Shown here in pieces: positions 25,136-28,657 of a stretch of DNA of 64,000 nt. Under the pieces are notes generated by a model, which did no database searches, had not been told where the DNA came from, and saw nothing but the letters and a program-made list of their open reading frames with translations. The position numbers were made by a program, and so were the translations under genes. The DNA is taken from contig JAHBUW010000001.1 of NCBI GenBank assembly GCA_019637875.1, positions 310,001 through 374,000 of the forward strand, read 5' to 3'. Source of the DNA: Pseudobdellovibrionaceae bacterium. Its GTDB lineage: Bacteria > Bdellovibrionota > Bdellovibrionia > Bdellovibrionales > Bdellovibrionaceae. How positions within the stretch are numbered: position 1 is the first letter of the stretch; the number at the start of each line of letters is the position of its first letter.

Positions 25136-25291
25136 GCTCACGGAACGACTCGAGTCTTAGGTTCTCGCGAAGCCGGAGGGACGAAAATGGGCGGCGTCTC
25201 ATCAAGAAATCGTCGAAAAAAGTGCGGGACAACTGAACCCCAGGAGCCGGTCCCGCGTCCAACCCCCAAACGTCTTCCAGGAGGAAGCCCC

Positions 25292-25747
25292 ATGACGAAG
25301 AGAATTCTGACCCTGACCGCTCTTGTTGTCCCCTTGCTGTTGGCGCTCGGTTTTTCCACGGCGCAGGCGCGTCCCGGCCACCACGGTGGACCGAAGATGC
25401 ACAAGCTGATGAAAGAGCTGAACCTGACCGGTGAACAGAAAGACAAAATCAAAGCCGAGCGCGAGAAGCGTAAACCCGAGATGAAAGCGGCCCGCGAAAA
25501 AGCGAAAGCCGCGCGGGAAAAGCTGCGCGAAGCCTTCAAGCAGAACGCCTCGGCGGATCAGCTGCGCACGTTGAAAAACGAAGTGCAAGCGGCGCAGACT
25601 GCGGCGGGGGATCTGCGTTTCGAAGGGATGCTCGCGCTACGTGAAGTGCTGACCCTCGAGCAGCGGGCGAAGTTCAACGAGTGGCAGGAAAAACGCCAAG
25701 CCAAGGGCTTCCCGGGCCGTGGTGATGACGACGAGGATGACGAGTAA
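25292..25747 (+). CDS. Spy/CpxP-like periplasmic protein (LTxxQ motifs)
   Basis: 151 residues, signal peptide ending near QARPG. The mature protein is a highly charged helical hairpin with LTGEQKDKI (about 45-53) and LTLEQRAKF (about 122-130), the LTxxQ signatures of Spy, CpxP and CnrX-type periplasmic chaperone/sensor proteins. It has an acidic C-terminal tail. AGGAGG precedes the ATG at 25292. Only 3 bp separate it from an ECF sigma gene, which recalls CnrX-type sensor/ECF arrangements, so it may sense envelope stress or metal rather than act as a plain chaperone (inference). Confidence 0.85.
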   Translation: MTKRILTLTALVVPLLLALGFSTAQARPGHHGGPKMHKLMKELNLTGEQKDKIKAEREKRKPEMKAAREKAKAAREKLREAFKQNASADQLRTLKNEVQAAQTAAGDLRFEGMLALREVLTLEQRAKFNEWQEKRQAKGFPGRGDDDEDDE

Positions 25748-25750
25748 ATC

Positions 25751-26242
25751 TTGAACTCGAAGGACGCGCTCTTTCAAGAGTGGTATCGCGACTACGCCCC
25801 GGGATTGCGGAATTTTCTTTTCCGCATCGCCGGGGCGTCCCCGTTGGACGATCTGGTCCAAGAGACTTTTTTGAAAGTCTGGCGCGCGATGGACGGCTTC
25901 GACGGTCGCGCGCAGCCGCGAACCTGGATTTACCGGATCGCCCACAACACGGCGATGGATCGTTTCCGTCAGAAGTGGCCCGATCCTTCGGACGAAATCG
26001 AGTCGCTGGTCGGCGCGACCGAGCCGCGGCCCGAGCTTGCGGATTTGATCGCGAAGGGCGTGGGCGTGCTGTCCGAGACGCTGCGACCCGCGTTCGTCCT
26101 GCATTACCAGCTTGAGTTCAGCGTCGCGGAGATCGCCGGAATCTTGGACGTTCCCGAAGGCACGGTGAAAACGCGCTTGAAAGCCGCCCGCGAAAAGTTC
26201 ATCGAGTTTCTGAGACAAAATGGAGTCGAACATGAGTTCTGA
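25751..26242 (+). CDS. ECF-type RNA polymerase sigma factor
   Basis: 163 residues with sigma-70 region 2 (RNFLFRIAGASPLDDLVQETF through TWIYRIAHNTAMDRFR) and region 4 (LETLRP-like helix, then FSVAEIAGILDVPEGTVKTRLKAAR). It has no region 1 or 3, so it is an extracytoplasmic-function factor. The start is TTG at 25751, just after the Spy-like stop; no later start preserves region 2. It overlaps the next gene by 11 bp. The likely regulator is the membrane protein downstream. Confidence 0.9.
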   Translation: MNSKDALFQEWYRDYAPGLRNFLFRIAGASPLDDLVQETFLKVWRAMDGFDGRAQPRTWIYRIAHNTAMDRFRQKWPDPSDEIESLVGATEPRPELADLIAKGVGVLSETLRPAFVLHYQLEFSVAEIAGILDVPEGTVKTRLKAAREKFIEFLRQNGVEHEF

Positions 26243-26591
26243 TCCGCTTTCCAAATTTCTGAAAGCCCACTCGGGAAGTCCGCCTCCCGCTCCGGCGGAC
26301 GAGCTTGAGCGTATCCTGCGTCGCCGGGAACCCGCGCGGTCTGAACGCCCCGTCGGTCGGATGTGGGCGGGCGGGGGCCTTGCGCTACTCAGCTTCGCGC
26401 TGGCGTTCGTCCTGATCGGTCAGCAACCCGAAATCCGTCAGGCCGGTATGAAGGTCGCGGCGACGCCCGTGCGGATCGCGACTCCGTATCCCCAGGATCT
26501 TCTGGATCAAGAGGTCAGCGATTTCTTCGAGGAGACTCTCGACGGCGAAGAAGCGGAAGAAGCTTGGGCCGACGGGGAATTTCTTCTTTAG
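26232..26591 (+). CDS. Single-pass membrane protein, probable anti-sigma factor
   Basis: 119 residues from the ATG at 26232 (GGAG upstream; an alternative ATG lies at 26220). The N-terminal 45 residues are cytoplasmic and include a charged DELERILRRREPAR helix. One membrane helix (about 47-66) follows, then a short acidic external part. Position and topology fit an anti-sigma factor for the coupled ECF gene. No zinc anti-sigma motif is present, so this is inference. The TAG stop lies at the edge of the long foldback repeat. Confidence 0.65.
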   Translation: MSSDPLSKFLKAHSGSPPPAPADELERILRRREPARSERPVGRMWAGGGLALLSFALAFVLIGQQPEIRQAGMKVAATPVRIATPYPQDLLDQEVSDFFEETLDGEEAEEAWADGEFLL

Positions 26592-26794
26592 AAAGTGACC
26601 CCTGAGTGGGCGTTTTCCGACTCCCGGAGAGTTTCCGAAAGGACTTTTCTTTCGCTCATTTGGGGCACGGCCCTCCTGGCCTCACCGCAGAGTCTTACGC
26701 CGTCCAGGCGCTGCGGAGGCCCCAACTGACCGAAAGAAAAGTCCTTTCGGAAACTTCTGAGATCTGGAAAGCGCCCACTCAGGGGTCACTTTCT
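26590..26794. repeat. 205-bp foldback repeat with 77-bp near-perfect arms
   Basis: Left arm 26590-26666 and right arm 26719-26794 are inverted copies. There is a 23-bp identical outer block (AGAAAGTGACCCCTGAGTGG then GCG), one mismatch, TTTCC, a variable 11-12-base internal loop, then a 24-bp identical block containing GTTTCCGAAAGGACTTTTC, and a last block ending TTGGGGC. The 52-base loop holds CCGCAG...CTGCGG. It starts at the anti-sigma stop codon and ends just before the stop of the convergent small gene. It is far longer than a terminator; a MITE-like element or a stable RNA hairpin are both possible. Confidence 0.85.
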
Positions 26795-26798
26795 TTCT

Positions 26799-27038
26799 TT
26801 AAGTCGGCGCCGGCTTGCGTTCACCGCGGACTCCGTGGTGGAAGAGGGCATGGACCGCGTTTCGTTTTTCATTCTGACCTTGGGCCTCACGGCGGTCCTT
26901 TGCCTCGGTGAGGCGCTCCAGTTCGCCTTTTAGCGGCGCACACTCGACAAAAAGTTCGTCGGGCCAAATCGTTTTAAATCCCCAACCGAGTGCGCAGCCC
27001 CGCGAGTGACAATTTTGCGCCCGGGCCCGACTTTGCAA
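26799..27038 (-). CDS. Possible small protein, function unknown
   Basis: 79 codons from a TTG start that is preceded by AAGGGAG at good spacing. Codon use in the middle (CTG GAG CGC CTC ACC GAG) looks like the neighbours. The protein has a GWGFKTIWPDELF segment, two cysteines and a charged helix (about 38-60). No signal peptide. It ends at the edge of the foldback repeat. Without a homologue I cannot exclude chance. Confidence 0.4.
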   Translation of the reverse strand: MQSRARAQNCHSRGCALGWGFKTIWPDELFVECAPLKGELERLTEAKDRREAQGQNEKRNAVHALFHHGVRGERKPAPT

Positions 27039-27757: not shown

Positions 27758-28657
27758 TTAGAAGGGTTGCGGCATCTTTTTACCGATGGCCTCGGGCTTT
27801 TGCAGATTCACCGCGGTGGTTTTCAGCCACTCCATTTGCGCGGCGACGCTGGAGTACAACGAGAACACTTCGCAGGTATCGTTCGGATCGTCGTGCCCAC
27901 GGCTGGTCACGCCGACGAGCACGAGTTGCCCTTCGACTTCGATGAAGGCGGGGCCGCCCGAGTCGCCGTGGCAGGCGCCCGAACCGGCTTTCTGATTCAT
28001 CTGAATTTCGGAATCCGAGAAGTCGGGGTTCTCGATTTTCACTTTCGTTTTATTCAGACCTTGCGCCTCGGTCTTTTGGCGACCGTTGGTCCAACCGAAG
28101 CCCGCCAGCAGCGCTTCGCCCTGAGCGACGAGCAGGGTTTTGTTCGAAAGCATGCGGACGGGAGCATAATTCGCCGGGATTTCGCCGTCGAAGCGAAGAA
28201 GCGCGATGTCGCCCCAGTTTTTATCCGTCGCGAAATCGTTCTTGGGCCATTGCGGATGAGTCTCGCCCGCGATGACTTTGCGAACCACGCTGGCCGCGGC
28301 GGCTTCGCGCGTTTTCGGCAGCTTGTTGGTGAAGAGGATCGCGAGGTGATTGGGATCTTCGGTCGTGCAGTGACCCGCGGTCACCACCAGATTTTTGCTG
28401 ACGAGCGAGCCCGTGCAGACGATCTGGCCGTAGCGCAGATTCACGATGGCGACGGTGGATTTCAAAACCGCGTCGTCATCCAGGACGGCTTCCCCGCCGA
28501 AAATACCCTGGGTGCCGTTTTTGCCGGAGCCCAGATCTTCGGTGGTCAGCAGACCACTATATTCGTCCACCGACGCCTTCGGCGCGCAGGCCGCGAGGCC
28601 CAAAGTGGATGTCACACACAAACTCAAAAAGAACCGTTCAATCCCTTGCGAAAACAT
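27758..28657 (-). CDS. Trypsin-like (S1) serine protease lipoprotein
   Basis: 299 residues. Lipobox LAAC with Cys24, so probably membrane-anchored. Chymotrypsin-fold catalytic triad: His96 in TAGHC, Asp150 in WGDIALL, Ser233 in GACHGDSGGPA. GIFGGEAV near residue 51 resembles the zymogen activation site, so it may need cleavage. Four cysteines fit two disulfides. Expected to cut proteins outside the cytoplasm. Its upstream region is the structured 28.8-29.0 kb segment. Confidence 0.93.
   Translation of the reverse strand: MFSQGIERFFLSLCVTSTLGLAACAPKASVDEYSGLLTTEDLGSGKNGTQGIFGGEAVLDDDAVLKSTVAIVNLRYGQIVCTGSLVSKNLVVTAGHCTTEDPNHLAILFTNKLPKTREAAAASVVRKVIAGETHPQWPKNDFATDKNWGDIALLRFDGEIPANYAPVRMLSNKTLLVAQGEALLAGFGWTNGRQKTEAQGLNKTKVKIENPDFSDSEIQMNQKAGSGACHGDSGGPAFIEVEGQLVLVGVTSRGHDDPNDTCEVFSLYSSVAAQMEWLKTTAVNLQKPEAIGKKMPQPF

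Follow-up and report, generated by a model that had tools for sequence, protein, structure and literature searches.

The MITEs of IS elements are short, non-coding and dispersed in several copies, and they carry the terminal repeats of a resident IS and target duplications of IS length. The REP, BIME and REPIN sequences that go with RAYT genes are extragenic and palindromic, and are sometimes paired in opposite orientation (PMC3733652, PMC3116915, PMC2817692). In brief, REPs are 20-40 bp long; their stems measure 5-13 bp and have a GTAG or CGTC foot (PMC3733652); their dissemination by TnpA-REP is a subject of PMC8266576. Upkeep of hairpins by template switching has been described for RNA genes (rRNA, microRNA); it is marked by multibase compensatory changes and perfect stems, and intrastrand switching predicts more G-C and U-A pairs (PMC8794818). 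The element described here shares the listed traits of MITEs (with duplications of IS length at five of its copies), the extragenic, palindromic and sometimes paired arrangement of REPs, and the compensatory changes, perfect stems and pair excess of template-switch hairpins.

The window, by which we mean the whole 64,000-nucleotide stretch of DNA that was analysed, contains a long fold-back at the end of an ECF sigma factor operon. The features at this locus are the following.

25751..26242, + strand: ECF sigma factor gene with Sigma70_r2 and r4_2 domains, a neighbour outside the element
26220..26591, + strand: 123-aa ORF 3' of the ECF sigma gene, without a Pfam match, a candidate anti-sigma factor by position only
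26584..26590, + strand: left flank direct repeat TTCTTTA, a putative degraded target duplication, not a clean 9-mer
26591..26793, + strand: non-autonomous hairpin element (MITE-type) with ends GAAAGTGACCCC...GGGGTCACTTTC; 14 copies in the genome; terminal-repeat-like ends whose spacing to the tip matches that of eight other copies
26590..26666, + strand: 5' arm of the stem
26667..26718, + strand: conserved branched tip, laid out as AC, hairpin 1, TCA, hairpin 2, AG; covariance-model match at 26646-26742
26669-26681, + strand: tip hairpin 1, GGCC-CTCCT-GGCC
26685-26716, + strand: tip hairpin 2, CCGCAG-(AGTCTTA bulge)-CGCC-GTCCA-GGCG-CTGCGG, with a 7-nt bulge
26719..26794, + strand: 3' arm of the stem
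26795..26801, + strand: right flank direct repeat TTCTTTA

The initial annotation had described a 205-base fold-back at 26590-26794, and both its arms and its folding bear this out. With its flanks the hairpin folds at -168.8 kcal/mol, compared with -97.1 +/- 5.5 for 200 shuffled sequences (z = -13), none of which folds as low. The centre is no simple loop; it consists of two small hairpins. The arms share an identical block of 23 bp (AGAAAGTGACCCCTGAGTGGGCG), as had been noted, and shorter blocks of 7, 5 and 3 bp; the second long block measures 25 bp and not 24. The difference between the arms lies mostly in one internal loop, at about 26619-26629 against 26756-26765, also as first described. 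A search of the hairpin against Rfam gave no match at the gathering score.

The TAG stop of the 123-aa ORF takes its last letter from the first base of the element. The window hairpin is a MITE-type insertion that landed in this stop codon, behind the ECF sigma gene, and it is not part of the ECF operon. Judging from its GAAAGTGACCCC ends and the offset TTCTTTA repeats, it probably inserted at the operon's end some time ago. Together with the gene for an LTXXQ-type protein, the ECF sigma gene and the 123-aa ORF (window 25187-26591) likely form an envelope-stress operon. A gene for a trypsin-like protease lies on the - strand at 27758-28657.

In the genome that holds the window, a covariance-model search found the branched tip exactly 14 times, each time on a long stem; this first model was built from 13 copies. 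A DNA search of the same genome gave full-length relatives with 79-84% identity and other places that matched in the tip alone. When the latter were read by eye, they too had long stems, of different sequence. The copies are dispersed and carry no transposase gene. Terminal repeats of about GAAACTGSCCCC are found on nine of them, including the window copy, and are weak in two (L006, L008). The spacing from this motif to the tip is constant in the nine and in one copy of G072, a genome of another genus whose own IS carries the same terminal repeats as its hairpin copy. Exact 9-bp direct repeats stand outside the arms of five copies (L003, AAACTAGAA; L004, AAATAAAAA; L005, CTTCATTTC; L009, TATCGAGTA; L010, TGAAAGGCT), and the window copy has only the offset 7-bp repeat, no clean 9-bp duplication.

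No transposase adjoins the fold-back, as the initial annotation stated; a matching IS is nevertheless present elsewhere in the genome. A search with the end motif identified a single-copy IS1-like element of 966 bp (G000:C8:27957-28922; L148:1501-2466) that shares the ends of the hairpins, is flanked by a 9-bp duplication (AATTTCTAA) and encodes a 306-aa transposase. It resembles the IS1 family in its 9-bp duplication and in a 138-aa match between the transposase and NCBIfam's model of IS1 (44.1 bits, E 2e-11), but this score is below the curated cut-off of 100; the resident IS, as predicted from its sequence, is therefore best called IS1-like. The ends of classical IS1 differ from those of the resident IS. 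Of the 119 genomes in the group, 56 encode homologs of its transposase, and several of these homologs have ends that resemble RAAACTGSCCCC. The suggestion of a MITE-like element, to be checked by a search for further copies with target-site duplications, is supported by the dispersed copies, their terminal repeats and the five duplications. The resemblance to MITEs has limits, in that the hairpin is a palindrome over nearly all of its 205 bp and its tip is kept beyond the relationship to the IS. IS ends are missing from five of the genome's own copies (L011-L013, L015, L016) and from almost every copy in other genomes, and in the other surveyed elements IS ends at the expected distance from the tip were nowhere clearly above background. 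The IS therefore explains only one branch of the family.

At E <= 0.01 the first tip model matched 49 of the 119 genomes, the window's own included. At E <= 1e-6 a second model, made from 57 diverse copies, matched 72 of the 369 phylum genomes searched. Since it was trained on hits of the first model, the independent control is a set of 22 unrelated genomes, which gave no matches at E <= 0.01. Distant members checked by eye have both tip and stem. The stems are 25-83 bp long and differ in sequence by locus and species; G110 has eight copies, including perfect stems of 83/83 and 52/52 pairs. Relatives have anywhere between 0 and 26 copies, the most being in G010. In two loci from another class of the phylum (L404 and L405, G328) foot and tip are shared and the perfectly paired middle of the arms is wholly different. 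A one-off inverted duplication, the outcome foreseen by the initial annotation if there were no copies, no conservation and no transcript, is almost certainly wrong given the 14 copies and the relatives across the phylum.

No description of this hairpin family was found in the literature. A scan of public genomes with a pattern for part of the tip, which is ill-suited to such a search, gave chance matches only, in G+C-rich genomes, and two viral matches that are apparently due to chance. The family looks new, and its mode of evolution is unusual.

The pairing between the arms is maintained, as the initial annotation had suspected, and covariation in relatives is massive. In a matrix of 33 pairs by 57 sequences 96.8% of the cells are paired, and two-sided changes occupy 620 cells, compared with 173 +/- 10 after shuffling and 108-184 in slid controls. 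Between close copies two-sided changes outnumber one-sided ones (for instance 12:0, 5:0 and 3:0), and single-base insertions are mirrored in the opposite arm (L111/L117, L123/L132). At orthologous sites the tip is kept above the noncoding flank and the arms are not; in L116 and L118 the tip is 98% identical, compared with 46% for the noncoding flank and 45% for the arms. For the arms of L112 no donor was found elsewhere in its own genome, where the tip alone matches, or in five relatives. On the strength of this one locus, gene conversion from another copy was rejected as the source of new arms.

The stem pairs are also biased in direction, with 892 G-C against 727 C-G and 1016 T-A against 648 A-T, counts to which orthologous loci contribute partly dependent data. 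This is the bias predicted for intrastrand template switching (PMC8794818). The 5' arm is G+T-rich at 73 of 88 loci. Most copies have a pyrimidine-rich tract in the 5' arm, 5-20 bp from the tip, with T at about 0.4-0.5; it is a preference within arms whose sequence is free elsewhere, and the excess of T-A is partly due to this tract. In L066 and L085 a partial second tip and part of a stem adjoin the full hairpin, as if left by aborted copying. The two-sided changes, the mirrored insertions, the variable arms and the donorless L112 point to copying between the arms in place, of the kind known from quasipalindrome correction or template switching. We infer that stem complementarity is best explained by copying at the DNA level, in which one arm serves within the hairpin as template for the other. 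It should be noted that the published work on template switching concerns RNA genes, whereas here the object is a DNA element repeated at many loci, each with private arms.

Selection on an RNA is the other way to read such covariation; the hairpin would then be an RNase III substrate, an mRNA 3' stabiliser or a regulator of the gene in front. Its placement agrees with this, as copies often lie 20-60 bp past a stop codon, the upstream gene runs towards them on the + strand in 31 of 47 cases (rough gene calls, orthologs included), and a pair lies between rplL and rpoB. The stems speak against it. G-U occupies about 8 of 1806 cells (~0.4%), and a strict reading of 105 stems gave 3283 Watson-Crick pairs, 10 G-T, 46 A-C and 85 others. 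RNA stems show far more G-U than this, and the G-U pairs and intermediates expected of a functional RNA stem are not in evidence here. Their near absence counts against an RNA stem as the main target of selection, as does the missing Rfam match. The more specific proposal of a regulatory RNA of the ECF operon is not supported, since the genome has the same element in 13 further places; the hairpin could be an RNase III substrate, provided that it is transcribed.

Mismatches in the stems bear on the same question. Those unstable on the + strand and stable on the - strand outnumber the reverse by 81 to 17 (own genome left out, kinship ignored); counted by genome, with the own genome included and kinship again ignored, the bias is 23 to 2. 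That one folded strand matters could suit an RNA, but the bias favours the - strand fold, while the upstream gene would transcribe the + strand. It is the - strand fold, with GGA or CGA in the tip loops, that seems to be selected. Single-stranded DNA thus fits better than an mRNA element, and we regard a function as RNA as decidedly unlikely. CsrA-type binding to GGA loops of the - strand was rejected, as the loops of many tips are TCG instead, which reads CGA on the - strand. A replication-strand bias was also rejected, as the strands look mixed by eye along G080 and G081.

HUH enzymes read strand-specific folds. The tip could be the recognition hairpin of an HUH/Y1 transposase (RAYT or IS200-like), with the family as a giant-armed REP system; the strand-specific folding and the pairs in opposite orientation, reminiscent of REP dimers, would suit this. 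Paired tip hairpins at L067, L068, L069, L076, L078, L087 and L408 are always + then -, about 170-560 bp apart, and several of the pairs lie between rplL and rpoB. In G010 a RAYT gene sits between inverted copies with the same arms, much as RAYT genes go with REPs and REPINs. This locus (L165:1292-2776, G010:C50), with a RAYT gene of 182 aa and cut by a contig end, looks like a composite element. It is, however, the only one of 30 RAYT loci with tips nearby; the other 29 have none, and neither do two further RAYT fragments of G010. Several carriers are without RAYT, among them G020, G030 and G062, which have hairpins and gave no RAYT match in either search. The stems of 25-83 bp also exceed those of REPs, and the conserved part is the tip and not the foot, which is variable. 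With a link in G010 only, RAYT was rejected as the general mover, and we consider the HUH reading unlikely. G110 gave no match in the RAYT searches or in the search for the IS transposase. No single mover explains the family; some carriers lack the IS, and some lack RAYT.

One genus (g7) has many copies at orthologous intergenic sites, with gene names assigned by reading the sequences: a pair between rplL and rpoB, one copy between prpD- and prpB-like genes, and others after rpoD, after ssb and elsewhere. Their retention, with the tip kept above the noncoding flank, would be expected if the tip were a host protein binding site or a DNA-structure signal at fixed chromosomal places, with mobility secondary. 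This reading is somewhat doubtful, as copy number ranges so widely between relatives and the window's own genome has recent insertions. Our leading guess is that the tip is read by a single-strand reader, either a transposase or a host protein.

Based on these observations, we suggest that the window fold-back is probably a 0.2-kb non-autonomous mobile hairpin of a phylum family, whose arms are kept complementary at the DNA level. The mobile element would carry the branched tip of this wider family and spread in its own genome as a MITE of the IS1-like element, whose transposase, judging from the ends and duplications, may act in trans on the GAAACTGSCCCC ends and leave 9-bp duplications. The arms were most likely re-copied from each other repeatedly as the hairpin was replicated, through template switching within it. 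The tip and the fold of one strand may in addition be under purifying selection, a possible cause of the statistical bias. More tentatively, the family as a whole could be phylum-level DNA hairpins in which the tip is a folded single-strand signal and the free arms copy themselves, a class not tied to one particular transposase.

Changes on both sides of a stem commonly count as proof that an RNA is functional. This family has hundreds of such changes, with almost no G-U and with insertions that are compensated, spread over dozens of loci of related genomes. The family is therefore a clean data set for asking how often template switching in DNA alone makes 'covariation', and it would be a clear example from nature of DNA arms that copy each other; if this is true, bacteria have kept in it a natural record of template switching at many loci. 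The conserved branched tip would be a recognition signal of a family that is phylum-wide but has no Rfam entry, and the IS1-like ends illustrate one way in which hairpins of this kind may become mobile.
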